A stretch of 64,000 nucleotides of DNA, from NCBI GenBank assembly GCA_033875315.1, contig JANRJG010000004.1:1-64000 (forward strand), read 5' to 3'. Source of the stretch: Candidatus Methylacidiphilales bacterium (lineage in GTDB: Bacteria; Verrucomicrobiota; Verrucomicrobiia; Methylacidiphilales; CAZTYG01). Position 1 is the first letter of the stretch. Each line of letters opens with the position of its first letter. Under the pieces are notes generated by a model. The model saw nothing but the letters and a program-made list of their open reading frames with translations. It ran no database searches and was not told where the DNA came from. Below, in pieces: positions 10,486 to 40,408 of the stretch. A program made the translations under genes and the position numbers.

Positions 10486-12018
10486 TCAATTACCGCCGAA
10501 CAAATTGCCGGGGAATTGGGTTCCTTTGGCCTCGATGAGGGAGGCAAAGTAGAGGTCGCGGGCCCGCCGGGAGTTTTCCTGGGCCAGTTCCGCGGTGACG
10601 CGGGGCAGGGCTTCGGCGCGCTTGGCCGCATCGGGTTCGCCGCGGGAAGCGAGGTGGAAAATGACCACTTTGCCCTCCAACGGGGTGGGGTCGGAGATTT
10701 GTCCGGGTTGGAGCTGGATCGAGCGGTAGCGGGCGGCGTTCAGCAGGGCCGTCTGGGCTGATTTCGGATCCGGGCTGGCGACGACGAAGGCGGGAAGTTT
10801 GGCCGGGGATTGACCGGCGGCCGCGGCGGCCTGGGCGAAGGTCTTGCCAGCGGCCAATTCCTGTTTGAGCTTGGCGGTCAGGGACTCGATGGCCGCCTGG
10901 GCACGGAGGTTGGTCTCATTCTCCAGGAAGGCCTTGCGGACGTCGTCTTTGACCGAGTCGAAGGGCCGGAGTGTTGGGGGCTGCACTTCCTTCAGGCGCA
11001 GGACGGCAAAGCCTTCGTTGATCTGGACATAATCGCTCACCGGTTTGGCCGGGGTGAGGGTGAAGGCCAACTGGGCCAGCGAGGTGCCGGAAGGCCCGGG
11101 GATGACAAAGCCCTCTTTGGCGAAGTAAGGCGAGGTTTGGACCTCGAGTCCGGCTCCCTTTGCCTGGGCGGCGAAGTCGGGAAGCGGGGCGTTGCTTTCC
11201 ATGGCGTTGTAGAAAGGTTCGGTGAATTGATAGGCTTTTTCGCCGAGGGCGCGGCGGGTTTTGGCGGTTTCATCCGCGGATTGGTCCTTGGGGGCGGGCG
11301 GGAGCTTGAAGAGCACGTATTCGACCTTGCGCTGTTCCGGGAGGGCGAAGCGGTCGGAGTGTTTCTCGTAAAAGGCGCGCAGGATGCCGTCGTTGGTCTC
11401 GATTTTGCCGGCCAAAGACTCGGGTGAGAGCTGGAGGTACTCCATGTTGACCGGGGCGAAGTAGTTCTTGAAGGCGGCGTCTGCTTCGGAGGGGGGGACG
11501 ACCACGGTGTCCTGGAGGGACTGCATCCAGGTTTCGATCAGCACCTGTTCCCGCATGATCTCAAAAAATCGTTCCAAGCCGACTCCTTGGGGGTTGAGGA
11601 CGAAATCCTGGAATTTTTTGAAATTTTCCGGCGAGAAGGTCTTCTTTTCCGGGTCTTGAAAAAGGGGTGAGTTGCGGATGTTGAGTTGGACTTCCTCGGG
11701 CTTGATGGCCAGTCCGGCCTGGTGGATCTCTTCGAGCAACAACAGGCGGAGCCAGGCCTGTTGGGAGATTTCGCGGCCAGCTTCATCGCCCGAGCCGGGG
11801 ATGCGGCCAGTGGAAAGGGTGTAGGCGATGCGGGAGGCGCGGATGGCATTCTGGTATTCGGTCAGGTTGACCGGGCGGCCCTTGATTTTGGCGGCGAAAG
11901 TGGCGCCGCCCCTGCGGCCGTTGCCGGACCAATTGCCGAAGAAAACGAAGGAGACGGCGATGATGACCAGGACGAAAACGAGGATGAATTTGAGTTTTTG
12001 ACTGAGGAAGGTGAGCAT
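10486..12018 (-). CDS. PpiD/SurA-like membrane-anchored periplasmic chaperone
   Basis: The 510-residue protein has an uncleaved N-terminal membrane helix (FILVFVLVIIAVSFVFFGNW). A SurA_N-type helical region follows: GRPVNLTEYQNAIRASR, LRLLLLEEIHQAGLAIKPEEV, then FQDPEKKTFSPENFKKF. The architecture matches PpiD, which helps fold outer-membrane and secreted proteins at the Sec exit. A classic parvulin motif is hard to see. Residues about 290-380 (PYFAKEGFVIPGPSGTSLAQLAF, VSDYVQINEGFAVLRLKEV) look like a PPIC-derived domain that may have lost isomerase activity. Divergent from the ExbBD cluster with 49 bp between start codons. Confidence 0.75.
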   Translation of the reverse strand: MLTFLSQKLKFILVFVLVIIAVSFVFFGNWSGNGRRGGATFAAKIKGRPVNLTEYQNAIRASRIAYTLSTGRIPGSGDEAGREISQQAWLRLLLLEEIHQAGLAIKPEEVQLNIRNSPLFQDPEKKTFSPENFKKFQDFVLNPQGVGLERFFEIMREQVLIETWMQSLQDTVVVPPSEADAAFKNYFAPVNMEYLQLSPESLAGKIETNDGILRAFYEKHSDRFALPEQRKVEYVLFKLPPAPKDQSADETAKTRRALGEKAYQFTEPFYNAMESNAPLPDFAAQAKGAGLEVQTSPYFAKEGFVIPGPSGTSLAQLAFTLTPAKPVSDYVQINEGFAVLRLKEVQPPTLRPFDSVKDDVRKAFLENETNLRAQAAIESLTAKLKQELAAGKTFAQAAAAAGQSPAKLPAFVVASPDPKSAQTALLNAARYRSIQLQPGQISDPTPLEGKVVIFHLASRGEPDAAKRAEALPRVTAELAQENSRRARDLYFASLIEAKGTQFPGNLFGGN

Positions 12019-12067
12019 GGGAAGGATTTTCTCTTGTTATTTCAGAGGTGCGGGGCACAAATGGTTC

Positions 12068-12829
12068 ATGATCAAAGTCCAGCGCCGATGGACCTGGCCC
12101 GTGACGTTGGCGGCCTTCCTGATTGCCAGCCACGCCGCCCAGGCGCAAGATAAAATCGTATTGAAGGATGGTTCGCCATCCAACGGGGAAATCACAGCCT
12201 ACGATCCAGCCAGTGGGGCAGTCACCTTCAAGAACGACAAGGGGACGGTCCCGTACCCGGCGGCCACGCTCTCCAAGGTTGAACTGGGGGAGCGTCCAGA
12301 ATTCGCCAAAGGAGTCGCTGCGGTGTCGGAGGAGCGCTACGCCGAGGGGGTGGACCTGCTCAAGCCCCTGGTGGACAAGTTTCTCGGGATTGATTCGCCC
12401 TGGGTTCCCCAAGCGGCAGCCTACCTGGCGGATGCCCTGGCCAAGACGGGCAAGACCTTCGACAGCGAGCAGTTGGCCGACAAGATCGTGAAGTCCTATC
12501 CCAACAGCATCTTCCGTTACCAGGGGATGATCAGCAAGGCCGCCTCCCTTTCGGCGAAGAAGAATTACGATGAGGCACTGACCTTGTTGGCCGAAGTGGA
12601 GAAAGCCGTGCCACAGACGGCGGCACCCGATGCCCGGACGATGCAGATCCTGGGGGATTTGTTTTACAACCGGGCGATCATCTACAAAGCCAAGGGTGAC
12701 AAGGCCAAGGCCTACGAGTCCTTTTTGACGGTTTCGTCCCTCTATCACAAACCGGCCAAGCGCGCCAAGCTGGCCTTGGCGGAAGCTGAAGCCCTGCGCA
12801 AAGAGAACAAAGATCTCTTTGTCAATTGA
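12068..12829 (+). CDS. Secreted TPR-like protein of ExbBD cluster 1
   Basis: The 253-residue protein has a signal peptide (LAAFLIASHAAQAQ). A short beta-rich leader follows (DKIVLKDGSPSNGEITAYDP...VTFKNDKGTVPYPAATLSKVEL), then helical TPR-like repeats (about 90-245). The leader matches the one in the protein at 33419-34348 (DEILLKNG...EIPYPLAQVERVQF). The two are therefore paralogues, each placed before an ExbB gene. It lies 6 bp upstream of exbB. Likely a periplasmic partner of the proton-driven complex; the exact role is unknown. ATG at 12068 gives a proper signal peptide. Confidence 0.75.
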   Translation: MIKVQRRWTWPVTLAAFLIASHAAQAQDKIVLKDGSPSNGEITAYDPASGAVTFKNDKGTVPYPAATLSKVELGERPEFAKGVAAVSEERYAEGVDLLKPLVDKFLGIDSPWVPQAAAYLADALAKTGKTFDSEQLADKIVKSYPNSIFRYQGMISKAASLSAKKNYDEALTLLAEVEKAVPQTAAPDARTMQILGDLFYNRAIIYKAKGDKAKAYESFLTVSSLYHKPAKRAKLALAEAEALRKENKDLFVN

Positions 12830-12835
12830 CGCATC

Positions 12836-13582
12836 ATGTTCCGATCCGTCAGGCGGTCGGCGGCTGCCGCCGCCTCGTTCATCCTGTTCCTGGCCCCTGT
12901 GACGGAGTCGCAGGCGGCGGAAAAGGGTCGCACCCTGGGAGAAGTCTTCCAGGCCGGCGGACCGGTGATGTGGTTGTTGTTGTTGCAGTCGATGCTCCTG
13001 GTGGCCGTGGTGGTCGAGGCCTGGCGGCGTTTCCGGGTGGGAGAGTTGGTTCCCGCTGAGACCCATCGCGAGTTGCACCGCTGGGTCGGGGAAGGGGATC
13101 TGGCGCGGGCCCATGGGGAAAGCCGCAGCCGGAAGGATCTTTTTGCCTCGGCCATGGATGCCGCCCTGGGCCGTTTTTCCAAGGGGCAGGAGGCGGCGCG
13201 GGATGCGGCATCCGATGTGCTGCATGTTCATGCAACCCGGATGCGCGGGTGGTTGAATTACCTGTCCGCCATCGGGGTGACCGCGCCGATGCTGGGTCTG
13301 TTGGGCACGGTCATGGGGATGATCAAGGCTTTTGAAAATCTGGGCCACTCCGGCGTGGCGGACATGACCGGACTTTCCGCCGCCATCTCCGAGGTGTTGG
13401 TCACCACGGCGGGGGGATTGGTGGTCGGCATTCCCGCCTTTGTGGCCTACTACATCCTCAAGAATCACCTGGCAGATTCACTGGCCACGGCGGAAAAGGA
13501 AGTTTTCGACCTGGTGGACGCACTGCCATACGGGGCGCCGGTGGCCCCGGAACACGCGGAACCCGCCGCGCCCGCGGCATGA
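12836..13582 (+). CDS. exbB: MotA/TolQ/ExbB proton channel family protein (cluster 1)
   Basis: The 248-residue protein begins with a signal-like helix (SAAAAASFILFLAPVTESQAA). A first TolQ helix follows (VMWLLLLQSMLLVAVVVEAW), then a cytoplasmic loop and the paired helices: YLSAIGVTAPMLGLLGTVMG and AAISEVLVTTAGGLVVGIPA. This is the stator pentamer subunit that uses proton motive force. Its stop overlaps the following exbD start by ATGA. A leading cleavable or extra helix is unlike E. coli ExbB and is shared with the cluster 2 homologue. Confidence 0.9.
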   Translation: MFRSVRRSAAAAASFILFLAPVTESQAAEKGRTLGEVFQAGGPVMWLLLLQSMLLVAVVVEAWRRFRVGELVPAETHRELHRWVGEGDLARAHGESRSRKDLFASAMDAALGRFSKGQEAARDAASDVLHVHATRMRGWLNYLSAIGVTAPMLGLLGTVMGMIKAFENLGHSGVADMTGLSAAISEVLVTTAGGLVVGIPAFVAYYILKNHLADSLATAEKEVFDLVDALPYGAPVAPEHAEPAAPAA

Positions 13583-14052
13583 GGTCGCGCCGGGCGGTGG
13601 TTGACGAGCCGGGCGACGCCCCGGAATTCCAAGTATCCGCCATGGTCGACATCCTCATGACCATGCTGGTTTTTTTTGTCGCGACCGCCACGTTTGAGTA
13701 TGCCCGCCAACCGGCCGACCTGGCCCTGCCCCGGGCCCGCCGGGAGGGTCCGGGGGATTCCCGGGTGGCGGGATTGGTCTTGCAACTGGAACGGGAAGGC
13801 GGGCGGATTCTGGCCGACCAGGTGCCGGTGGCCCGTGCCCGCGACCTGGTTCCTTTGATCCGGGAACGGATGCGCACCGCCAACCGGCTACGCGGACAGG
13901 GGGCGGAATTCCGTGTCCTGATCCGTGCCGACCGGACGACGCCTTACTGGCGGGTGGAGGAAATCATGCGGGCGGCGGGCGAAGCCGGGGTGGTCGATGT
14001 GTTGTTTGCCATGGAACGGCCCGGCAAGAAGGAGAAGGGGGGCGGGTCATGA
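13579..14052 (+). CDS. exbD: ExbD/TolR family protein, Asp intact (cluster 1, first copy)
   Basis: The 157-residue protein has one transmembrane helix with the proton-carrying aspartate (VSAMVDILMTMLVFFVAT, Asp24). A periplasmic domain ends in LIRADRTTPYWRVEEIMRAAGEAGVVDVLFA, the normal ExbD C-terminus. It starts within the exbB stop (ATGA) and its own stop overlaps the next gene, so translation is coupled. Works with ExbB as the moving part of the stator. Confidence 0.88.
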   Translation: MRSRRAVVDEPGDAPEFQVSAMVDILMTMLVFFVATATFEYARQPADLALPRARREGPGDSRVAGLVLQLEREGGRILADQVPVARARDLVPLIRERMRTANRLRGQGAEFRVLIRADRTTPYWRVEEIMRAAGEAGVVDVLFAMERPGKKEKGGGS

Positions 14053-14462
14053 GCAGGAGTAGGATTGGGCACAGGCGGATTTTGGCGGATGACGATGCGG
14101 CGCCCACGCCCCAGATCGCCCCGATGATCAACGTCATCATCGTGATGGTGGCTTTCTTTGCCGGGGGTTCCGCTCTGGGGACCTTCGAGCAGCACCTGGG
14201 CCTCAAGCTCCCGACGTTTCTCTTCGAGCGCGCCTCCACTGTGGACCGTCCACTGGTGGTTGATTTGCTGGTCAACGGCAGGTGCCGCCTGGGCGGCAGG
14301 GAATTGACGTCGGCGGAACTGGGGGAGCGCCTTGCCTCCCTGAAGCCCGCCCTGGTGCTGATCCGGCCGGAACCAGCCACGCCCCATGAGACGGTCATGG
14401 GCGCCCTGGAGTCGTGCTCCGAGGCGGGGGTGGGGCGGGTCCAGTTCGCGCCTTTGCGCTGA
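14049..14462 (+). CDS. ExbD/TolR family protein with Asp-to-Asn change (cluster 1, second copy)
   Basis: The 137-residue protein has the ExbD pattern PQIAPMINVIIVMVAFFAGG and a C-terminal ALESCSEAGVGRVQFA. The residue aligned with the essential membrane Asp is Asn28 (codon AAC). The three other ExbD proteins in the window read APMID or SAMVD here. A protein lacking this Asp should not carry protons. It may pair with the first ExbD as the silent half of a heterodimer inside the ExbB pentamer. The start overlaps the previous stop (ATGA). The family call is firm; the heterodimer idea is inference. Confidence 0.85.
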   Translation: MSRSRIGHRRILADDDAAPTPQIAPMINVIIVMVAFFAGGSALGTFEQHLGLKLPTFLFERASTVDRPLVVDLLVNGRCRLGGRELTSAELGERLASLKPALVLIRPEPATPHETVMGALESCSEAGVGRVQFAPLR

Positions 14463-28605: not shown

Positions 28606-30531
28606 ATGGCAGAGAAACCTTGCCCGCGGGGGGTGGTGATGGTTCACTCTTCTCCTGTGATCAAAGCTCGAGGACTGAATGCGTTTATCTGGGGGAATTC
28701 CATCGCACTGGCTTGGATGTGGGGCCTGGGTTTGTTTTTCAGCGTCCAGATGACCTACATGTTCGGCCTGAAAGGGCTGCTCACTTTTGCCGTTCCCAAT
28801 GCCTTGGGATTGATGCTTTTTGGTTTTTTCACCCAGATCGTGGCCGACCGCCACCCCGGGGGGCAGGAATCGCTTTCACTGTTTTTCGAAAAATTCGCCA
28901 AGCCGTTCCGGCTGATCTTCTATCTATACCAAATTTTGGCCATCACGCTCTCGGTCTTTGCCCTGGTGCGTTACCTTTTCGTCCCCTTGGAACTGGCGAC
29001 CGGTCCGCTCTTCGGCCTCTACCTTTGTCTGGTGGTTCTCGTCATTCTGGCTGCCGGATGCCTTTTTGGTGAGGAATTCGGTATCCAGAAAATCAAGTAC
29101 AGCCACCTGGTGCAGGGGTTGATCCTGATTGTATGCGTGGGCACCATCCTTTTCCATCTGGACCCCTTCCTCCCCCGCGACCTCAAATGGGTGGAACCTT
29201 TCCGCGATGAGTGGCTGGCCCAGCGTTACTGGGGATATGCCATTCCGGTGACCGTGGGTTTATTGGTGGGCCCTTGGTTAGATTTGCAGCACTGGCAGCG
29301 TGCCATCCAGATCCACCGGGAGCGCACTTCCATCCGTCTGGGGTATTTCTTTGGGGGATCGATTTTTTTCCTCCTGCTGCTCTTCCATGGTTGCATGGCC
29401 TACTGGGTCATCCGCAACGGCACAGGTCTCTTTGAAGCCCACAAGGGACTCGACAGTTTTTACTATGCCCACGACCTCGTGACCCAGTACTTCTGCAATT
29501 TCTACGAGAAGGGGAACGACCTGCTGCCTCTGGCCTACTACGGGTTTCTCGGCATCTGCATCCTGACCACACTCGACAGTGGTTACGTCGCTCTGAAATG
29601 GTTCCTGGGTCACAATGCCGAGAAAAGCCAGAACATGCTCCTTTCCATCGTGCCCAAGCAGGTGGTCGGTTCTCCCATCCCCAGTTTCGCCTTCGCCGGA
29701 TTGGCGACCCTGGTCGCCTACATCGTGAAATTGGAATTGGAATACTTCATGGTGTTCTATGCCTCGTTCTTCGTGGGCTACGCCTGCCTGGCCATCGCCC
29801 GCTGCTTTGTCCCCAATTCGCAACACCCCTTGCCCCAGATACGCATGTTTTCCATGGCCAGTATCTCCGTCGTGATTTTTTCCATGGGGTACTTCCGCAG
29901 CGAAAATGTCCTGCTCATCCTGGGCTCGATCATGCCCATTGGCTACGTGGTGTGGTTGGTTTTCAATACCGATCTTCTCCGCGTGGTGACCGAGCGCGCG
30001 GGTGAAGTCCTGGAGGCGGCGGCCTCGGAAATACCAGCCATCCGGGCCATCACCCGCACCGCCACCGCCGTCACCGGGAGCGATGTTTCGCCGCCCTCCC
30101 ATGTCCATCCACTGGGGGGCCATTTCGAGGGCAAATGGTTCGTGTATTCGACCATCGCCACTTACGCCGACACCAATTCCGTCGGGAATGTTTACTTCGG
30201 CATGTATGCCATGTTCGTAGGAAAAACGCGCGAGCTGTTCTTCAATACCGTCATGCCGGACTTCGATCTCAAGACGACCAAATTCTTCATCCTGACCCGG
30301 TCTTTCGAGCACAAGTTTGTCCGGGAAGCCCGTGAGTTCGACACCATCACGGTCAAGATCCGGGTGTCCGAGACGAACCGGAAGTTCTGCACACTGGAAC
30401 ACCAGATCTTTGATTCTGCCAACAATGTTCTCGGCAAAGGCAAACAGGGTCTCCTCTTTGTCTCGTCCAAGGACTACAGCCTCATCGATATCCCCTCCGA
30501 AGTTTATACCGCCTTCATGAAGTATATCTGA
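28606..30531 (+). CDS. Multi-helix transporter-like protein fused to a hotdog (4HBT-type) thioesterase domain
   Basis: The 641-residue protein has two unlike halves. Residues about 25-470 form roughly 12 membrane helices with the look of LeuT-fold/sodium symporters (SIALAWMWGLGLFFSVQMTYMF, AIPVTVGLLVGPWLDLQHWQ, YYGFLGICILTTLDSGYVAL). Residues about 506-641 read as a YbgC/4HBT hotdog: FVYSTIATYADTNSVGNVYF with the catalytic-type Asp522, MYAMFVGKTRELFF, FDTITVKIRVSETNRKFCTLEHQIF, GKGKQGLLFV. An acyl-CoA thioesterase tail on a transporter is unusual. ATG 28606 is used; ATG 28639 follows a G-rich ribosome-binding site and is a good alternative. Substrate unknown. Confidence 0.72.
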   Translation: MAEKPCPRGVVMVHSSPVIKARGLNAFIWGNSIALAWMWGLGLFFSVQMTYMFGLKGLLTFAVPNALGLMLFGFFTQIVADRHPGGQESLSLFFEKFAKPFRLIFYLYQILAITLSVFALVRYLFVPLELATGPLFGLYLCLVVLVILAAGCLFGEEFGIQKIKYSHLVQGLILIVCVGTILFHLDPFLPRDLKWVEPFRDEWLAQRYWGYAIPVTVGLLVGPWLDLQHWQRAIQIHRERTSIRLGYFFGGSIFFLLLLFHGCMAYWVIRNGTGLFEAHKGLDSFYYAHDLVTQYFCNFYEKGNDLLPLAYYGFLGICILTTLDSGYVALKWFLGHNAEKSQNMLLSIVPKQVVGSPIPSFAFAGLATLVAYIVKLELEYFMVFYASFFVGYACLAIARCFVPNSQHPLPQIRMFSMASISVVIFSMGYFRSENVLLILGSIMPIGYVVWLVFNTDLLRVVTERAGEVLEAAASEIPAIRAITRTATAVTGSDVSPPSHVHPLGGHFEGKWFVYSTIATYADTNSVGNVYFGMYAMFVGKTRELFFNTVMPDFDLKTTKFFILTRSFEHKFVREAREFDTITVKIRVSETNRKFCTLEHQIFDSANNVLGKGKQGLLFVSSKDYSLIDIPSEVYTAFMKYI

Positions 30532-30665: not shown

Positions 30666-33422
30666 ATGTTGCGTTTCCGGCCGCTCCTGATTGTGATCCC
30701 CTTTGTGGCCGCCTTGCTGCTTCCGCCGGGCCATCTCCAGGCCCAGTCAGCCGCGGATCTTCTCCAGACCGGCTCAGCCGCCTACCAGGCCGGTGATTTC
30801 ACCAAGGCAGAACAGGCTTTTTCCCGATTCCTCGCCGACTATGGCAATTCGCCTGAAGCCGCCACCCAGCGCGAAAATGTCCTGCGGCTGACCGGGGTTT
30901 GCCAGATCCAGTTGGGCAAATTCGGGGAGGCCATGACCACGGTGGAGCGCTACCTCCGCGAATTTCCGCAGGGGAGCAGGGCCGAAGATTTTACTTTTTG
31001 GAGGGGAGTCGGCGCACTGAAACTCGACGATGGAAAAAAAGCTTATGAGGCTTTCGAACAATTCCTGAAGGCCTATCCGCACAGCAACCGCTCCGAAGAT
31101 GCGCGTTTCAGCATGGGGTTGGCCCTGCTGCGGCAGGACAAGTTCAAAGAGACAGCCGAGTACTTCGCCAAACAAACCGAATGGAAGCCGGCCATTGCCT
31201 ACCAAGTAGCTGTTATCCGTCTCCACGCCCTGATCCAGTCCGGCCAATTTGATGCCGCGGCCCAATTCCTCCCTTCCATCCACCCCGAGGATGAGGCTGC
31301 CTGGAAAATTGCCGCCTACCACCTGCTGGCCCTTGATCTGGGCAACCGACTCATGGAAGAGGACAAGTACCGCCCCGCCCTCGGCGTGCTCCAGCGGGTT
31401 TGGTCCAAACCGCGCATCTCGGCTCGCCAGTCCGGCCGCCTGGAAAATCTCCAGTCGCAGATCACCAAGCTTTCAGCCAACCCCCAGTCCGCGGGTTCAT
31501 ACGAACTGCTGCAACTCAAGGATCTTGCCGCCCAAGTCGGACAAGACCTGGCCCAGTTGGGTAAAATCCCGGATTACGACACCGCCCTGCAGTTCCGCAT
31601 CGCCCGTTGCTTCTACGAACTTGAACGTCCGCGCGAGGCTTATCTGGCCCTTCATCACATGGTATCGAAGATGCCCGAAGGGCCGCTGCTGGCCCCGGCC
31701 GGTTACACCATGATGATCTGCCTGACCCGGATGGAACGGTGGGACGAGGCAGTGGCGGCGGCGGATGACTTTGCCAAGCGGTTCCCCAAGGACAAGCAGC
31801 TGCCGGCGGTCCTTTACCTGAAAGCCGAATCACTCCAGCGCATGCGTTCTTACGCCGAAGCCGGGCAAACGTTCCGCCAAGTGGCCGAACAATTCCCCGA
31901 TTTCCCCGAGGCCGCGCGCTGCGATTTCCTCGCGGGTTACACCCTGTTGCTGCAGAACAAGAACACCGAAGCGGCGGCCCATCTGGCCGGGGTCCAGGAA
32001 CGGCAGCGACGCAGTCCCTTTGCCGAACAGGCCCTTTACTGGGAGGCCATGGCCACCCATTTCAACAAGGATTACCCCAAGAGCCGGGAAGTTTTTGCGG
32101 AATACCTCAAGAAATTCCCCAAGGGCACGAACCAAGCCGACGCCACCTACCGCCGCGCACAGGCCCTCTTCAACCAAAAACTTTTCACCGAGGCATACAA
32201 GGAATTGGAGGCTTTTCTCAAATCCTATCCGGACAGCACGCCTTATGACGAGGCCTGCAACCTCCTGGGTGATTGTTATCTGGCACTGGGCGAAATCTCC
32301 CGGGGCCTGGCTTCCTACGCCAAAGTGAGCGGCCGCGATTCCAAACTATTGGAGTATGGCATCTTCCGCACCGCCCAGGCCTACAAGGCCGAGGAGAAGT
32401 ACGACCAGATGCTGGCCCTTTTCATCCGATTCACCAAGGAGCGGCCGCAAAGTCCGCGTCTGAGCGAAGCTCTTTCCCAGCTTGCCTGGGTCTACCGTCG
32501 GCTGGAAAAACCTGACAAAGCGGTAGAAATTTACTGGGATGCGGTGGAGCGCTACGGGAACGACCCGGAAGCCCCGGCGGTCGAGACCATGTTCAAGACA
32601 CTGGGCCGGATGAACCGCGCCCCGGAGCAAAAAACCGCGCTGCTGGCCCGCCTTTCCGACATGGCCGAGGACGCCCTGGCACAGAAGAAAAATACCCTCG
32701 CAGCACGCATCTGGTGGCTTCGCGCCTCGCTGCTTGAGAAGGAATCCCCGGAGGAAGCCTCCAAACTTCGCTTGAAGATTGCGGCCACCGTCCCGCCCCG
32801 GGAATTGAGTCCGCTGCTTCTGGCCGATGTGGCCGACGAATTGCGCAAGTCGGCCAAGACATCGGATGCCGCGCTTTTCTACCAGACCATCCTCAGTTGG
32901 TATCCACTCTGCGCCTTCAAGGACCGGGCCTATGCCGGCCTCGGTTTGCTGGCCATCCAGGAGGGCAACGAAAAGAAGGCCCTAGACCTCTTTGCCCAAT
33001 TCGAGCGCGAAGCGGGCCGTTCCCCGCTGTTGGCCGAGGTCCTCCAGGCCCGGGCGGGACTGCTGGAAACCCGGGGCAAATCCGATGAGGCGGTCAACGA
33101 TTTGGAAAAAGTCCTGCAGATTCCCGGTGCCAAAGGAAAACCCTGGGTGGACGCCCTCTATCGCATCGGTGAGATCCGGATGCGGCAGAACGACCCCAAA
33201 CGGGCCATTCCCTATTTCCAGCGGATCTACGTGATGTACGGCCGGTGGTCCGATTATGTGGCCAAGGCCTATTGGCAAAGCGGGCAGGCCTTTGAAAAGC
33301 TCAACATGTCGGCGGAAGCCGTCAATACGTACAAGGAATTCGTCGCCCAGGAACATCTGGGCCAGACGCCCGAATACAGCAAGGCCAAGGAACGCCTCAA
33401 ACTGAGCGGGGGTGGGGCATGA
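30666..33422 (+). CDS. Large periplasmic TPR-repeat protein of ExbBD cluster 2
   Basis: The 918-residue protein has a signal peptide (LLIVIPFVAALLLPPGHLQAQ) and then tetratricopeptide-like helical pairs along its whole length. Examples are GSAAYQAGDFTKAEQAFSRF, GQTFRQVAEQFPDFPEAARC, ATHFNKDYPKSREVFAEYL and ALFNQKLFTEAYKELEAFL. The spacing and AXXYP/FP elements resemble YbgF/BamD-type periplasmic TPRs. It heads a six-gene run whose next two junctions overlap by ATGA. A scaffold role for the ExbBD-VWA machine in the periplasm is inference. Confidence 0.82.
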   Translation: MLRFRPLLIVIPFVAALLLPPGHLQAQSAADLLQTGSAAYQAGDFTKAEQAFSRFLADYGNSPEAATQRENVLRLTGVCQIQLGKFGEAMTTVERYLREFPQGSRAEDFTFWRGVGALKLDDGKKAYEAFEQFLKAYPHSNRSEDARFSMGLALLRQDKFKETAEYFAKQTEWKPAIAYQVAVIRLHALIQSGQFDAAAQFLPSIHPEDEAAWKIAAYHLLALDLGNRLMEEDKYRPALGVLQRVWSKPRISARQSGRLENLQSQITKLSANPQSAGSYELLQLKDLAAQVGQDLAQLGKIPDYDTALQFRIARCFYELERPREAYLALHHMVSKMPEGPLLAPAGYTMMICLTRMERWDEAVAAADDFAKRFPKDKQLPAVLYLKAESLQRMRSYAEAGQTFRQVAEQFPDFPEAARCDFLAGYTLLLQNKNTEAAAHLAGVQERQRRSPFAEQALYWEAMATHFNKDYPKSREVFAEYLKKFPKGTNQADATYRRAQALFNQKLFTEAYKELEAFLKSYPDSTPYDEACNLLGDCYLALGEISRGLASYAKVSGRDSKLLEYGIFRTAQAYKAEEKYDQMLALFIRFTKERPQSPRLSEALSQLAWVYRRLEKPDKAVEIYWDAVERYGNDPEAPAVETMFKTLGRMNRAPEQKTALLARLSDMAEDALAQKKNTLAARIWWLRASLLEKESPEEASKLRLKIAATVPPRELSPLLLADVADELRKSAKTSDAALFYQTILSWYPLCAFKDRAYAGLGLLAIQEGNEKKALDLFAQFEREAGRSPLLAEVLQARAGLLETRGKSDEAVNDLEKVLQIPGAKGKPWVDALYRIGEIRMRQNDPKRAIPYFQRIYVMYGRWSDYVAKAYWQSGQAFEKLNMSAEAVNTYKEFVAQEHLGQTPEYSKAKERLKLSGGGA

Positions 33423-34348
33423 AACGTCCGATCCTGCTGGCTTTCGGATTCCTGTGTATTCTGCCGTTTGCCCTGCAAGCGGACGAAATCCTGTTGAAAA
33501 ACGGCCAGAAATCCACCGGGCTGATCACGGGAACCGATGGCAAATCCGTCACCCTCCGCATGACCATTGGCGGCGGGGAGGCGGAAATTCCCTACCCGTT
33601 GGCCCAGGTGGAACGCGTGCAGTTTGCCAATGATGCCGGCCAACAGATCCTCTTGGCTTCCGACGATCCCGGCCGCTTGGCCGAAGTCACGGCTATCTGG
33701 GACAAACGCCGGGCTTTTCTCGCATTGGCCGACAGCGATGCCGGGGCCTGGGCCCTGCGTTGCGCCCGCCTGATGCTCGGTAAAAAGACCAAGAAGGCAG
33801 CCGCCGAGGCCGTCGAGCTTTGCCGTCTCGTCGAAAAAGAAGACTGGGATGCCGCCCGCAAGGCTGATGCCGCCCGCCTGCGCCTCACCGCGATGGCCGC
33901 ATCGGGACAGATCGACGAGGCCATCAAGGAGGCGGAAAGCCTCCAGGATGCCTCGGGTGTTGACGAGCAGACACTTGCCGGTGCCCGGATCAAGGCCCGT
34001 TTCCTCCAGGCCCAATTGTCCTGGAACAAGCTGCTCGAATTGGAAAAAGATTGGCCGAAATGGGAACTGATGGCGGACAAGCGCCGGGAGCGCACCCGCC
34101 TGCTCAACGAGGCCCTCGATGGGTTCCTCTTCCCGGTGGTCTTCCAATCCAATCTGGTGAACAGTTGCGCCGAGGGACTTTTCCGTGCAGCGGAAATCGA
34201 GGCGCATGACGGCCATCCCGAGCGCGCCCTGTTGGCGCTCGATGAAATCCTGCGATACTTTCCCGATCCCGAGTTCCGTGGCAAAGCGGAACAATTGAAG
34301 AAGGAACTGGAAAAGCAAAACAAGCCCACAGCCGAGAAAAAATCATGA
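33419..34348 (+). CDS. Periplasmic TPR-like protein, paralogue of 12068-12829
   Basis: The 309-residue protein has a signal peptide (LAFGFLCILPFALQADE). A short beta-rich leader follows (ILLKNGQKSTGLITGTDGKSVTL...EIPYPLAQVERVQF), then TPR-like helices to the Lys-rich end. The leader aligns with the first gene of ExbBD cluster 1, and both genes precede exbB. Start and stop overlap neighbours by ATGA (33419, 34345), giving translational coupling. Function unknown; likely a conserved accessory of this ExbBD type. Confidence 0.8.
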   Translation: MKRPILLAFGFLCILPFALQADEILLKNGQKSTGLITGTDGKSVTLRMTIGGGEAEIPYPLAQVERVQFANDAGQQILLASDDPGRLAEVTAIWDKRRAFLALADSDAGAWALRCARLMLGKKTKKAAAEAVELCRLVEKEDWDAARKADAARLRLTAMAASGQIDEAIKEAESLQDASGVDEQTLAGARIKARFLQAQLSWNKLLELEKDWPKWELMADKRRERTRLLNEALDGFLFPVVFQSNLVNSCAEGLFRAAEIEAHDGHPERALLALDEILRYFPDPEFRGKAEQLKKELEKQNKPTAEKKS

Positions 34349-35169
34349 ACCACCCCATCCGCCTCCCCATCCTCATCCTCCTGCTGGCCCTGGCCGGTTT
34401 TACCTGCCTGTCTCCGTCTGAATTGTCGGCAGAACCGGAGCCGACCACCCAGGAAAACATCAACAAAAAGGTCGCCGCCGGCCAGAAGGACAAATCGCTC
34501 CTCGACCTGTACCACGAGGGAGGCCCGGTCATGCACCTCATCGCCCTTTGTTCGGTGGGGATGATGGCTTTGTCCGGTTTCTGTGCCCTGAATTACAGCA
34601 AAGCCAAATTGATGCCACCCGCCCTCGTCTCCAGCCTCAGCCAGCTGATGAGCCAGCGTGATGTGGCTGCGGCCCACCAACTCTGCCAGCAACATCCCGG
34701 GCCCCTCTCCAATGCCCTCCAGTCCGCGCTGGTCAAGGCCAACTTCGAACGCGATATGTTCAACAAAACCGCGATGGAAAATGCCATTGCCGACGAATGT
34801 TTCCGTGAGGAGACCAAGATGATGGTGGTGATCAATTACCTCAACACCCTGGCCGTCATGGCCCCGATGATCGGATTGTTGGGCACCGTCATCGGGATGA
34901 TCAGCAGCTTCTCCGCCCTGACCGCGGGCAAGGCCGAGGCCACCGAACTGGCCGGGGGTATTGGCGAGGCCCTGGTTGCCACCGCTGGCGGTCTCCTTCT
35001 GGCCATCCCTTCGATGTTCCTTTACTTCTACTTCCGCGGCCAGGCCCAGAGCGTCATGGCTGATGTGCACAAGGCGCTTTCCACTCTGCTCGACCTTTTC
35101 ACCGGCGAGGTCACCGCACAAAGCCTGCAACACCCCAGTGGCCACTCCGGCTCCATACCCCGTCCCTGA
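34345..35169 (+). CDS. exbB: MotA/TolQ/ExbB proton channel family protein (cluster 2)
   Basis: The 274-residue protein has a leading signal-like helix (LPILILLLALAGFTCLSPSELSAE). A TolQ helix follows (VMHLIALCSVGMMALSGFCAL), then a cytoplasmic loop and the paired pore helices: LAVMAPMIGLLGTVIGMISSF and GGIGEALVATAGGLLLAIPS. The extra N-terminal signal region is shared with the cluster 1 homologue. It is coupled to the upstream gene (ATGA) and followed after 30 bp by exbD. Confidence 0.92.
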   Translation: MNHPIRLPILILLLALAGFTCLSPSELSAEPEPTTQENINKKVAAGQKDKSLLDLYHEGGPVMHLIALCSVGMMALSGFCALNYSKAKLMPPALVSSLSQLMSQRDVAAAHQLCQQHPGPLSNALQSALVKANFERDMFNKTAMENAIADECFREETKMMVVINYLNTLAVMAPMIGLLGTVIGMISSFSALTAGKAEATELAGGIGEALVATAGGLLLAIPSMFLYFYFRGQAQSVMADVHKALSTLLDLFTGEVTAQSLQHPSGHSGSIPRP

Positions 35170-35199
35170 CCTCGTTCACCCCGCAGTTCATCCACAGCC

Positions 35200-35622
35200 A
35201 TGAGTGAAATCCGCCGCAAAATGAGGCGTCCCCACGTCGAGGAGATCGGTCTCCAGATCGCGCCCATGATCGATGTGGTCATGCTGTTGCTGTTCTTCTT
35301 CATGCTCACCGGCAAACTCATGCAGGGCCAGAAAATGAGGACGCTCGACCTCCCCCGGGCCTCGGCCGCCGTCATTCCCAAGGACACCAGCGGCCGTGAT
35401 ATCATCAATGTCGACGAACAAGGCCGCATGTTTGCCGGGGACCAGCAGATGGACCTGAAGCAGCTCAAGGCCTATCTCAAACAGCGACTGATCGACTATC
35501 CGCCCCTGAAGATCTACGTCCGCGCCGATGCGAGAACACCGGCCCGCCAGATCAAGGACATCATGCAGGCTGCCGCCGAAGGCGGGGCCGTCGAGGTCAT
35601 CATCGCCAGCAACAAGAACTGA
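35200..35622 (+). CDS. exbD: ExbD/TolR family protein (cluster 2, first copy)
   Basis: The 140-residue protein has the ExbD helix GLQIAPMIDVVMLLLFFFML with Asp25 and the periplasmic end IYVRADARTPARQIKDIMQAAAEGGAVEVIIA. It should form the proton-carrying dimer within the ExbB pentamer. A second ExbD follows 6 bp later, so a heterodimer is possible; here both copies keep the Asp, unlike cluster 1. Confidence 0.92.
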   Translation: MSEIRRKMRRPHVEEIGLQIAPMIDVVMLLLFFFMLTGKLMQGQKMRTLDLPRASAAVIPKDTSGRDIINVDEQGRMFAGDQQMDLKQLKAYLKQRLIDYPPLKIYVRADARTPARQIKDIMQAAAEGGAVEVIIASNKN

Positions 35623-35628
35623 TCCACC

Positions 35629-36084
35629 ATGGCCACACCGCGCAAAATCGAGCATCCACAGGTCGAACTCCAGATCGCCCCGATGATCGACGTCTGTTTC
35701 CTTCTCCTTTTCTTTTACATCATCACCTCCAAGCCGGTGAAGCCCGAGGCCGATCTCAGCATGACCCTGCCCGGCACCGTGGCCCAGGAGCAGGCCCTCG
35801 ACATCCCGGACGAACAACGGGTGGAAATCCGCGCCAACGGCCAGATCATCCTCAACGATCTGCCTATCGACCGCCCCGAGAGCAGGGAACTCCCGCAATT
35901 GGTCGCCACGCTCAAGCGGTTCAAGGAAGCCTGTGATGCCAACAAGTCGGAAGCGCTCATCACCCTGGATGCCGAGGACACCGTACTCCACCAGCGCATC
36001 GCCGATGTCATGAACGCCTGTGCCTTTGCCGGCATCCAGGGGGTCAGCTTCGCCACCGGCGGCGAAGATGAGGAAACCTTTTGA
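35629..36084 (+). CDS. ExbD/TolR family protein (cluster 2, second copy)
   Basis: The 151-residue protein has VELQIAPMIDVCFLLLFFYIIT with Asp21. Its periplasmic part is longer than in the first copy (insert LPQLVATLKRFKEACDANKSEALITLDA) and ends RIADVMNACAFAGIQGVSFA. It overlaps the next gene by TTGA. Asp-intact, so both copies of this cluster could carry protons. Confidence 0.9.
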   Translation: MATPRKIEHPQVELQIAPMIDVCFLLLFFYIITSKPVKPEADLSMTLPGTVAQEQALDIPDEQRVEIRANGQIILNDLPIDRPESRELPQLVATLKRFKEACDANKSEALITLDAEDTVLHQRIADVMNACAFAGIQGVSFATGGEDEETF

Positions 36085-37130
36085 ACACGCCCATCCTGGA
36101 TACGCCCCCCGGGCAGAAGTCCCGCCTGCGCCGCACCGTGGTCAGCGTGCTGGTGGTGAGTCTGGCGGTTCATGCGGTCATCGGTGTTGGAGCCGGGGTC
36201 TGGGTCATCGCCCGTTACTTCTCTCCTCCCCCGGCGGTTTTTGAATCCAAACGGGTCATCGCCATCCCGCCGCAGATCATCGACCCGGCCATGGCCTCCG
36301 CCGAACTTGAGGGGGCGGCACCCAGGCCGACCATGGATGAGAAAATCGCCAGCCTGCGCGAAACCGACTTCGCCCTGCCGGACCTTCCCAAAGTTCCGAT
36401 GGACCAGGTGACGGATTTTGATCCTTCGGCCGTGGTCACGGACTCGGCCGGGCTGGGATCGGGTTTTGGTGGCAGCGGCACCGGTTCCGGAGGGGGTGGG
36501 GGAGGTGGGGGCGGCGATGGGTTGGGCACCGGGATCAGTTTTTTTGGCATCAAAGGCCAGGCCCGCAGCGTGGTCATCATGTTCGACGTTTCCAAGAGTG
36601 TGCAGACCAAAGCCGAGAAAGCCGGTGTGCCCATCACCGCCATCCGCGATGAGACCACCAGGCTCATCGAAGGCCTGTCCATCAACACGACCTTCAACCT
36701 CGTGCAGTTCAGCCGGATCTACCAACCCATGGCCCCGGAAATGCAGCCACCGAGCGATGCCGGAAAGGCCATGGCCAAAAAATGGCTGGAAACGGAATTC
36801 CGCACGGACGGGATGTTGCCCCGTTCGGTGAGGGGTTCGCGCGTTCCCGCGGCCGGTGGGGACAACGGCATTGCCTTCATCCTCGATGGCGTCCTGGCGA
36901 TGAAACCCGATATGATTTTTCTGATCTCCGACGGCAGCTTCCAATCCGATCTCCATGCAGAGCAGGTGCCTTGGAAGGAGCTGGAGGAATTGGTCGACAA
37001 GCACCGCAAGCTCGGCACCCAGACCAAAATCAATTTCATCGGCTTCGAGATGAAACCCGAGGACAAGAAGGAAATGAGGTCCATTGTCCGTAAAACCGAC
37101 GGCACCCTGAAGGAAATCGGACGGGATTGA
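36081..37130 (+). CDS. Membrane-anchored VWA-domain protein of ExbBD cluster 2
   Basis: The 349-residue protein has a TonB-like layout: short cytoplasmic tail, one membrane helix (about 19-46, VVSVLVVSLAVHAVIGVGAGV) and a periplasmic linker. A Gly/Ser spacer of about 25 residues (about 124-150) follows. Instead of a TonB C-domain it has a von Willebrand A domain with MIDAS-type VVIMFDVSKSVQTK (Asp169, Ser171, Ser173) and PDMIFLISDGSFQSD. The start is TTG at 36081, overlapping the exbD stop, with GAGGA 7 bp upstream; the next in-frame ATG lies beyond the helix. It may be the energy-transducing arm of the complex. Confidence 0.82.
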   Translation: MNTPILDTPPGQKSRLRRTVVSVLVVSLAVHAVIGVGAGVWVIARYFSPPPAVFESKRVIAIPPQIIDPAMASAELEGAAPRPTMDEKIASLRETDFALPDLPKVPMDQVTDFDPSAVVTDSAGLGSGFGGSGTGSGGGGGGGGGDGLGTGISFFGIKGQARSVVIMFDVSKSVQTKAEKAGVPITAIRDETTRLIEGLSINTTFNLVQFSRIYQPMAPEMQPPSDAGKAMAKKWLETEFRTDGMLPRSVRGSRVPAAGGDNGIAFILDGVLAMKPDMIFLISDGSFQSDLHAEQVPWKELEELVDKHRKLGTQTKINFIGFEMKPEDKKEMRSIVRKTDGTLKEIGRD

Positions 37131-37216
37131 GCCCTGCGCCCCCTTTCTCCATGCTTGCCACTTCGAAGAAATCACCTGTAATAGGCACGATGCCGTCGTC
37201 CGTTTCCACGGAACCC

Positions 37217-40200
37217 ATGAAGATCTCGAAGGAGTTGCTTGTCGAGATCGGTGGCTGGCGTGCCATGAAAGAGGGCCGCGCCCTTTGGGAGTGCGGCAAG
37301 GTCAAGGAAGTCTCCTACGAGCCTCCCATGCTGGTTGGGATCGTGCAAACCGGCACCAGCACGGTCAATGCCCGTCTCAACCTCGGCCGCCGCCTCTCCG
37401 ATGTCGAAAACCTCTGTTCCTGCCGCCAAGCCCGCGAGTACGGCACGGTTTGCGCCCACGTCATCGCCCTCGGACTGGAATACATCGAGTCCACGCCCTC
37501 TGCCAACGGGTCCTCAGCGGCGCCCAAGCCCGCCACCCGCATTTCCGTCCCTTCGGTCCATGGGCACAGCGCACCGGAAAAAGTGGCCCCCCGCCTCCAC
37601 TACATCCAGCTTTCCGAGGTCGCCGACGACACCCAGGTCCTGCAATTGCATCTGACGCTCCCCATCCGCCTCATCGATTCCTGGAATACCGGCGAAATGA
37701 GGATCATCTGCCAGGGCAGCCAGCCGGGGCAAAACCCGCACCCCCTCGAACATTATTGCGGGGATGAACTCAAACCCTTTGCCGTTTCCGATGCCGACGC
37801 ACAGGTGCTTGACCTGATCCGCCGACTGAACAACGGGGGGACCCCCGGCATTTGGCAGCTTTCGTCCAAGTATTTCGGCGAATTCCTCACCGCCCTGGTT
37901 GGCCACCCCCGTGTCTTCCACGGTAAAAAAGAACCCCTGGAGATCGCCCGCGCCGGGGAACGCTCCCGGTTGCACCTCGACCTGCTCGAAAACGGCGAAT
38001 TGCTCATCCATCTGGAGGAACCGACGGGAACCGACGGGGATTTCCTCCAATCGACCCACGGACAGTGGCGGCTCAACCTGAACCGGCTGGAGAAAGTCAA
38101 CGGCCTGCCGGTCAGCTACCTCAGTGTCCGGCAGCGCGATGTCACCGTACCCCGGACCCAGTTGGCCCATTTCTTCCAGTACGAAATCCCGCATTTGGAG
38201 CGGCAGGCCGACCTGGTCCTCTCGCCACGCTGCAAGGAAATCCAATTCACCAAGATTGTGCCCAAGATCCGGGCCACGCTGGACGGCTTGCTGTCTGGAT
38301 TAAGTTGTAAGGTCGAGGCGGTTTACGGCGACAAGACCTACGTGCTTCAGGGCAATGGCCCCGTGTCTTCCTCGGAGATCGACCAGTGGCGGCCCGACCC
38401 GGCCGATCCGCTGAAGTATTTCATCCGCGACCGCGAGCATGAACACCGTGCACGCCTGGAGGTGCAGATGGCGGGCTTCGCCGCGGGCACCCGCAATCCC
38501 GAGTTGTACACCTTGGCCGGGGAAAGCCGGGTCGGAGATTTCCTGGCCAACATCCTGCCCCGTTGGCAGCGCTCCTGGGCACTGGAATACACCCCGCGAC
38601 TGCGCCAGCTCCTGGACAAGTGCGACCACATCGAACCCGAGATCACCATCAATCCGTCCCAGCAGGAATGGCTGGCGGTCGATATCCAATTCAAGGAGGC
38701 CAAGGGGGCCTCATCCCTGACCCATTCCGACGTCCAACGTCTTCTGCAGATGGGGGCCAGCCACCAGCGGATGAACAACGGTCGGATCGCCCTCGTGCCC
38801 ATCCATTCGGTGCGCGAGTTCCAGGAAGTCATCCGCGACTGCGAGGCGCACCAGAACGGCGAGGGGATGAAGATCGCCCAGCGTTACGCCCGTTACCTGG
38901 GTGAGGCTTTGGAAGTCAACGGGTGGTCTCTGACGGGACGATCCGCTTGGAAGCCACCGCAGGCCTTGACGGATTTCACCGAGGTTCCGCTGGCCGATCA
39001 TTTGCGTGAACTCGTCCGCCCCTACCAGCAAACAGGGGTCAACTGGATCCATCATCTGGAAACCAACGGGATGTGCGGGATTCTGGCCGATGAAATGGGT
39101 CTGGGCAAAACCCTCCAGACGCTGGCCTACCTCAAAATGCGCAAGGATTCCGGCCAGGCCAAAGGACCCTTCCTCGTCGTCTGCCCGACCAGCCTGGTCT
39201 TCAATTGGCGAGACGAGGCCCAGCGCTTCACCCCCGACCTCAAGGTGCTTTCCCTCCATGGCGCCAAACGCTCCGCCCTTTTCGACAAGATTACCGGCCA
39301 CGACATCATCGTCACTTCCTACGCGCTGGTGCGTCGCGACATCGAACACCACAAAAACATCGAGTTCGATACCATCATCCTCGACGAGGCCCAGCACATC
39401 AAAAACAAGAGCAGCCAGAACGCCCAGTGCGTCAAGCAACTCAAGGCGGGTTACCGACTCGTCCTCACCGGCACACCGATCGAGAATTCCCTCCTCGATC
39501 TCTGGTCCATTTTCGACTTCCTCATGCCCGGGTATCTGGGCGGGGCCACGGACTTCAAAAACCGCTACGAAATCCCCATTGCCCGCAACAACGACACCGC
39601 AGCCCAGGAACGGTTGAAGCGCCGAGTCCGCCCCTTCATCCTGCGCCGGACCAAGGCCGAGGTTGCTTCGGACCTCCCGGCCAAATTGGAACAACTCGCC
39701 TACTGCGAACTCACGGAAGAACAGAAACAGGTCTACCAATCGATCCTCGAGGCCAGCCGCCGCAACATCCTGGACCTCTCCGGAAGGAAGAATCCCGACC
39801 AGAGCCGCATGGCCATCCTCACCGCCCTCATGCGTCTTCGCCAGGTATGTTGTCACCTCGAGATGCTGCCGTTCGACGAAACCCGCGAGTGGAAGGAACC
39901 TTCAGCCAAGATCGACTACTTCGTCGAACTTCTCAATCAGGCCATCGACGGCGGCCACCGCATCCTCGTCTTCAGCCAGTTTGTCAGCATGCTCAAACTG
40001 GTCGCCCGCACCTTGCAGCAGAAGGAACTGAAATTCTGCTACCTCGATGGTAGCACGATCGACCGTCGCAGCGAGGTGAAGAAGTTCCAGGAAAACGACA
40101 ACATCCCGGTCTTCCTCATCAGCCTCAAGGCCGGGGGCACCGGCATGAACCTGACCGGGGCCGACATGGTGGTGCACTTCGATCCGTGGTGGAATCCGGC

Positions 40201-40408
40201 GGTCGAGGACCAGGCCACCGCCCGAGCCCACCGCATCGGCCAGAACCGCATCGTACATTCCTACAAACTCATCGCCCGTGGCACAGTCGAGGAAAAGATC
40301 GTCAACCTCCAACAGAAGAAGAAAGACCTGGTGGCCAACACCCTGGTCAGTGAGGAAGCCTTCATCCGCAATCTCACCTGGGAAGAGTTGCAGGGCCTCT
40401 TGGAGTAG
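37217..40408 (+). CDS. SWI2/SNF2-family helicase with SWIM zinc finger
   Basis: The 1063-residue protein starts MKISKELLVEIGGWRAMKEGR. A SWIM finger (CSCRQ...CAH: Cys67, Cys69, Cys79, His81) follows, then a central bacterial SNF2-associated region. The helicase core has LADEMGLGKTLQTL (about 625), DEAQHIKN (723), LTGTPIENSLLDLWS, SLKAGGTGMNLTGADMVVHF and the final TARAHRIGQNR. It remodels DNA-protein or RNA polymerase complexes using ATP. Several starts are possible (TTG 37127 overlapping the previous stop, ATG 37151, 37190, 37217); the last begins the recognisable domain. Confidence 0.9.
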   Translation: MKISKELLVEIGGWRAMKEGRALWECGKVKEVSYEPPMLVGIVQTGTSTVNARLNLGRRLSDVENLCSCRQAREYGTVCAHVIALGLEYIESTPSANGSSAAPKPATRISVPSVHGHSAPEKVAPRLHYIQLSEVADDTQVLQLHLTLPIRLIDSWNTGEMRIICQGSQPGQNPHPLEHYCGDELKPFAVSDADAQVLDLIRRLNNGGTPGIWQLSSKYFGEFLTALVGHPRVFHGKKEPLEIARAGERSRLHLDLLENGELLIHLEEPTGTDGDFLQSTHGQWRLNLNRLEKVNGLPVSYLSVRQRDVTVPRTQLAHFFQYEIPHLERQADLVLSPRCKEIQFTKIVPKIRATLDGLLSGLSCKVEAVYGDKTYVLQGNGPVSSSEIDQWRPDPADPLKYFIRDREHEHRARLEVQMAGFAAGTRNPELYTLAGESRVGDFLANILPRWQRSWALEYTPRLRQLLDKCDHIEPEITINPSQQEWLAVDIQFKEAKGASSLTHSDVQRLLQMGASHQRMNNGRIALVPIHSVREFQEVIRDCEAHQNGEGMKIAQRYARYLGEALEVNGWSLTGRSAWKPPQALTDFTEVPLADHLRELVRPYQQTGVNWIHHLETNGMCGILADEMGLGKTLQTLAYLKMRKDSGQAKGPFLVVCPTSLVFNWRDEAQRFTPDLKVLSLHGAKRSALFDKITGHDIIVTSYALVRRDIEHHKNIEFDTIILDEAQHIKNKSSQNAQCVKQLKAGYRLVLTGTPIENSLLDLWSIFDFLMPGYLGGATDFKNRYEIPIARNNDTAAQERLKRRVRPFILRRTKAEVASDLPAKLEQLAYCELTEEQKQVYQSILEASRRNILDLSGRKNPDQSRMAILTALMRLRQVCCHLEMLPFDETREWKEPSAKIDYFVELLNQAIDGGHRILVFSQFVSMLKLVARTLQQKELKFCYLDGSTIDRRSEVKKFQENDNIPVFLISLKAGGTGMNLTGADMVVHFDPWWNPAVEDQATARAHRIGQNRIVHSYKLIARGTVEEKIVNLQQKKKDLVANTLVSEEAFIRNLTWEELQGLLE

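Follow-up and report, generated by a model that had tools for sequence, protein, structure and literature searches.

The 64,000-nucleotide stretch analyzed here (the window; positions 1 to 64,000 of contig JANRJG010000004.1, assembly GCA_033875315.1) comes from a Candidatus Methylacidiphilales bacterium of the phylum Verrucomicrobiota. At 30666-37130, a tight operon on the + strand joins an ExbB/ExbD-type proton motor to a single-helix anchor protein with a von Willebrand factor A (VWA) domain, preceded by two secreted proteins of the tetratricopeptide repeat (TPR) type. The six open reading frames were confirmed (Table 1), and from gene 1 to gene 6 the junctions are a 4-bp overlap, a second 4-bp overlap, a 30-bp gap, a 6-bp gap, and a final 4-bp overlap. 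An initial annotation, made from the sequence letters, had described six co-directional genes with four of five junctions overlapping by 4 bp or lying within 6 bp, and the coordinates agree. Its cast of characters also holds: two TPR-type secreted proteins, an ExbB carrying a signal peptide, a pair of distinct ExbDs, and the single-helix VWA anchor.

Table 1. The six genes of the operon, in window coordinates.
Gene	Product	Coordinates	Strand	Features
1	Large secreted TPR protein	30666..33422	+	918 aa; signal peptide; operon slot 1
2	Secreted slot-2 protein	33419..34348	+	309 aa; signal peptide, beta domain and TPR-type alpha-solenoid
3	ExbB/TolQ-type stator subunit	34345..35169	+	274 aa; PF01618, E 3.1e-27
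4	ExbD/TolR a	35200..35622	+	140 aa; PF02472, E 4e-22; proton Asp in APMIDV
5	ExbD/TolR b, diverged paralogue	35629..36084	+	151 aa; PF02472, E 8.8e-18; proton Asp present
6	TonB/TolA-like anchor with VWA domain	36081..37130	+	349 aa; TTG start

The same arrangement turns up across the phylum. When 388 genomes sampled across it were searched with a VWA-protein profile (E <= 1e-12), 94 of them matched, and 60 loci picked from the higher-scoring matches were fetched with their flanks. The order ExbB-ExbD-ExbD-VWA was found at 41 of the 60 loci, in 38 genomes. Six relatives and one public Verrucomicrobiaceae metagenome-assembled genome show the same order, although in some of them the TPR genes are absent, have diverged, or are interrupted by the end of a contig. 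Because the order recurs so widely, the arrangement is far beyond chance. The initial annotation would have been refuted had the VWA gene not accompanied ExbB and ExbD elsewhere, and it does accompany them. Its picture of a proton-driven stator with TPR scaffolds and a TonB-like anchor, whose VWA domain is periplasmic, is supported, and these parts are conserved together.

Within the flanks of the fetched loci, no conserved neighbors were found outside the six genes, except that in one clade the VWA gene is followed by two further co-directional genes (L116, L118, L127, L129, L141, L144, L148, and L151). Two loci carry a tandem pair of VWA anchor genes behind a single motor (L155, 1731-4625; L132, 8022-11238). 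In the closest relative (L045, G029:C84), the VWA gene is seemingly frameshifted in the linker region, possibly through an assembly error.

The motor itself is well defined. The ExbB and ExbD proteins score above the cut-offs of the Pfam families MotA_ExbB and ExbD, respectively, and the proton-carrying Asp is kept. The two ExbDs are 26% identical, and each resembles the corresponding ExbD of other genomes more than it does its operon neighbor. In the alignment, both ExbDs have the Asp at 48 of 48 linked loci; a regular-expression count had suggested its loss from some second ExbDs, an artefact. The membrane helices of ExbB contain Thr in the motifs GTV and EALVATAGG, and such Thr-containing motifs are kept in most loci. 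Because these residues are retained, the motor looks functional, as judged from sequence. Ahead of the transmembrane helices, ExbB has a hydrophobic segment (residues 5-23), read as an N-terminal signal peptide followed by a short periplasmic extension; this layout is known from the long ExbB of Serratia (PMC9008036).

Further stator sets are present in this genome, which yields 10 ExbB and 12 ExbD matches in all. One of these sets lies in the window at 12011-14462: a second ExbB-ExbD-ExbD cluster, whose first gene has the slot-2 layout (signal peptide, beta domain, TPR) and which contains no VWA gene. In its final ExbD the proton Asp is replaced by Asn (APMINV). Relatives of this cluster occur elsewhere in this genome, on contig C6, and next to the VWA operon at locus L048, where both Asp residues are kept. 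No VWA paralogues were found near the other ExbB loci of the genome, its four other VWA matches being on contigs without ExbB.

The anchor protein, gene 6, comprises three parts: an N-terminal helix (12-47) with Ser27 and His31; a disordered, Pro/Gly-rich linker (48-149); and the VWA domain (150-349). The AlphaFold model shows the helix at 12-47, low confidence across most of 48-149, and a predicted local distance difference test (pLDDT) score near 96 over 151-349. By the positive-inside rule the N-terminus of the single helix is predicted to lie inside, and topology prediction and model agree that the VWA domain faces the periplasm rather than the cytoplasm, as the initial annotation had it. 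The helix, VVSVLVVSLAVHAVIGVGAGVWVIARYF, contains no Asp. For the first family of vWA force transducers (PMC12204202), a motor box is described, a beta-strand of the linker that follows the helix. In close relatives of gene 6 a stretch 'IPPxII' is conserved at that point, but the monomer model predicts no strand.

Pfam gives the output domain a weak VWA_3 match (E 0.0018, below the curated cut-off). A profile built from gene 6 homologues matches solved VWA domains, including inter-alpha-trypsin inhibitor heavy chain (E 2.2e-12), BatB, and others, and a Foldseek comparison of the model with solved structures likewise returned VWA domains. No TonB_C or TolA match was found on the anchor in Pfam or NCBIfam; a VWA fold stands in that place.

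The initial annotation had also assigned this domain a metal ion-dependent adhesion site (MIDAS) of the DVSKS type. Here the claim divides. Asp169, Ser171, and Ser173 are indeed present, as D169-x-S171-x-S173, and so is Asp284; the site is nonetheless incomplete, with four of five residues, since Thr is missing. Many relatives have this Thr in 'GGTTRLDLAL', a segment that reads 'GGDNGIAFIL' in gene 6, and the equivalent of Asp284 is also lost from some motor-linked relatives. These losses weaken the idea of metal-dependent adhesion. Because of them, what the family has in common would be a VWA domain for binding, which need not be a metal-dependent adhesin.

How might such a protein engage the motor? 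In TonB and TolA, one Ser and one His of the helix contact the motor, according to Williams-Jones et al. (PMC12204202). A first count covered 49 motor-linked VWA proteins along with 20 aligned homologues without linked motor genes. The equivalent of His31 is present in 49 of 49 linked proteins and that of Ser27 in 43 of 49. Among the unlinked homologues, Gln replaces His in 14 of 20, and Ala replaces Ser in 15 of 20. The homologues with Ala-Gln in place of Ser-His (L102-L113, L125, L139, and L143), 14 of them without linked motor genes, appear from these residues to be uncoupled from a motor; in a tree built without the helix they fall within one larger group. One of the group, L109, has ExbB and one ExbD 2-3 kb upstream. 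The pattern is consistent with coupling, although the events are few and not significant as independent evidence.

The same comparison bears on whether the VWA protein is energized at all. It might instead be a periplasmic scaffold of the BatA/BatB kind that shares an operon with a stator by chance, as its BatB-like fold and the existence of one homologue clade without linked motor genes would allow. This is very improbable: the motor-contact His is invariant in linked proteins and replaced in the unlinked clade, the gene order is kept over the phylum, and the operon offers its motor no second anchor gene to drive.

The secreted proteins suggest what the anchor may act upon. Gene 1 matches TPR families in Pfam (TPR_6, E 1.5e-40) and resembles the TPR families YbgF/CpoB, BamD, and PorW/SprE; a large TPR gene of this type accompanies the motor at 37 of the 41 linked loci. 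Gene 2 matched no Pfam family. Its AlphaFold model (mean pLDDT 91) has a five-strand beta domain (22-68) followed by the TPR-type alpha-solenoid (73-308), its profile matches TPR proteins, CpoB among them, and its N-terminus has a below-cut-off likeness to a Leptospira N-terminal domain. Most linked loci hold a secreted protein of this layout between the TPR gene and ExbB, and these slot-2 equivalents have diverged so strongly that they fall into separate similarity clusters. Together, the TPR proteins of the operon match the CpoB/YbgF families and one CpoB crystal structure. By analogy with CpoB in Tol-Pal, the two are the likeliest candidate partners or adaptors of the VWA domain.

A different use of the TPR protein can be imagined, in which it acts like SprE or PorW while the VWA domain would open an outer-membrane channel or power an export route, making the operon a Ton- or secretion-like energizer of substrate or polymer handling. 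In favor of this, the TPR protein matches PorW/SprE in NCBIfam, well below the cut-off, and the many stator sets of the genome may be specialized for different jobs. Against it, the TPR matches are generic, a separate, conventional TonB adjoins its own ExbB/ExbD on contig C15, and the conserved surroundings of the operon include no gene for a receptor, a channel, or secretion. Substrate handling is an unlikely function.

The operon is best read as a proton-driven force transducer that acts in Tol- or Ton-like fashion on an envelope target, perhaps in envelope maintenance; we put the probability at roughly 75%. From gene content, order, conservation, topology, fold, and the conservation of the motor-contact and proton residues, all obtained directly, we infer a stoichiometry, docking, force transmission, partner, and cellular role as follows. 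ExbB, expected to be a pentamer, would form the inner-membrane motor with one ExbDa and one ExbDb. The single helix of the VWA protein would dock outside the ExbB ring through Ser27 and His31, in the manner of TonB and TolA, and the disordered linker would span the periplasm. The VWA domain would then bind its partner and pull or remodel it.

Energized upkeep or assembly of the envelope, a Tol-like job, would be the likeliest role. Taken on its own, a Tol-like role stands somewhat short of even odds. The CpoB-like TPR proteins lean towards it, by analogy. No match to TolB (PF04052) was found in this genome, which is about 96% complete, and TolB_N gave 13 weak matches among the 388 phylum genomes and none among the 38 linked genomes. 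Because TolB is missing from the genome and from the linked genomes, the Tol-like job is left open. Its absence was also considered as evidence of replacement and rejected, the base rate of 13/388 leaving such an argument without power.

Several points weigh against the force-transducer reading. The motor-contact motif SHLS is reduced in gene 6, which has Ser27 and His31 with Ala and Val at the Leu and Ser positions; PMC12204202 places the motif in 'many' vWA transducers, not all. Its authors state that no deletion phenotype is known for the class. The tree requires 7 changes of linkage and 3 of His, and a sign test has no power; an independent-pairs test of His against linkage was set aside for having too few independent events. 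TolB absence is the phylum norm, so it carries little information here. Finally, the VWA gene is absent from most genomes of the phylum, and the operon is thus not a universal replacement for Tol.

The genes that flank the operon contribute little to its interpretation. Upstream, at 28606-30531 of the window, lies a multi-helix membrane protein whose C-terminal part is a fused 4HBT-type thioesterase, and Pfam sees the thioesterase part alone; the idea that it belongs to a Tol operon in the way of YbgC was rejected, the gene not being kept beside the operon in relatives. Downstream, at 37127-40408, is a large helicase of the SNF2 family that includes a bacterial SNF2-associated region. Only with a TTG start would this gene overlap the VWA gene, by 4 bp, and it too is not kept beside the operon in relatives. 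A Zorya defense system was considered on account of this neighbor and rejected: PADLOC matches to ZorD cover the generic helicase part, the stator genes match neither ZorA nor ZorB, and tblastn gave no relative of the SNF2 gene in related loci. A plasmid comparison returned no match.

Other single-helix anchors driven by such motors invite comparison. If the operon were a motor for gliding or surface motility, as AglRQS-Glt is, its anchor would drive an envelope complex that contains TPR proteins, and the VWA domain would provide adhesion. Against this view, the VWA adhesin of Myxococcus, CglB, sits on the surface as a protein of its own and is not a motor-docked anchor; the VWA domain of gene 6 is attached to the inner membrane, and no gliding gene stands beside the loci in the flanks, no genome-wide search for Glt proteins having been made. 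The likeness to AglRQS-Glt is nevertheless real, with one TolQ-like and two TolR-like proteins, a TonB-like protein (GltG) contacted by AglR, and a predicted TPR protein in the Glt set (PMC3169522); gliding is also suggested by the authors of PMC12204202. The AglRQS-Glt anchor lacks a VWA domain, and no outer components of the Glt set appear next to the loci here. A gliding function is rather improbable.

The operon shares the ExbB/ExbD motor and the Ser/His helix with the Ton system, but it has two ExbDs and no TonB C-terminal domain, and conventional TonB proteins are encoded elsewhere in the genome. Its likeness to Tol-Pal (TolQRA-TolB-Pal-CpoB) extends to a stator, a single-helix transducer, and a CpoB-like TPR protein in one operon; here, however, VWA replaces the TolA C-terminal domain, there are two ExbD genes, the genome lacks TolB, and the operon lacks Pal. 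A bolder proposal, which we hold tentatively and consider doubtful, is that the six genes form a complete energized machine distinct from the Ton, Tol, and gliding motors, one that would pull its own secreted TPR pair through the VWA domain to perform a Tol-like outer-membrane task without TolB-Pal. Few jobs are known for ExbB/ExbD-type motors, and a phylum-wide operon whose output domain is a different one suggests a further use for proton-driven force at the envelope. In the Verrucomicrobiota, where TolB is nearly absent, this operon is a candidate for energizing the outer membrane.

The closest parallel is already in print. The initial annotation had suggested an undescribed envelope system, but Williams-Jones et al. 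(PMC12204202, June 2025) proposed a class of vWA force transducers with the same gene order in the Planctomycetota-Verrucomicrobiota-Chlamydiota (PVC) group. Their AlphaFold 3 complexes place the helix on the motor, docked by way of its His. A second family described there, vWA-TolQ, shares an inner-membrane VWA protein and a TolQ-like motor; according to the same paper it has no TolR and carries an Asp in the VWA helix, whereas the present operon has two ExbDs and no helix Asp. The locus is a member of the first family. Both architecture and synteny agree: an N-terminal helix with a conserved His, a disordered linker, and a C-terminal vWA domain, encoded downstream of a TPR gene, a tolQ-like gene, and two heterologous tolR-like genes. 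Relative to that description, the reduced SHLS motif and incomplete MIDAS are not differences in kind, and the second secreted partner, with its beta domain and TPR in a conserved slot, is an addition. The present analysis contributes the count across the phylum, the association of His with linkage, the proton Asp kept in both ExbDs, the conserved slot-2 gene, and the missing MIDAS residue, though some of these may already appear elsewhere in that paper. For a class that already has a name, the invariant His, the paired ExbD Asp, and the two secreted partners provide precise handles for finding its function.
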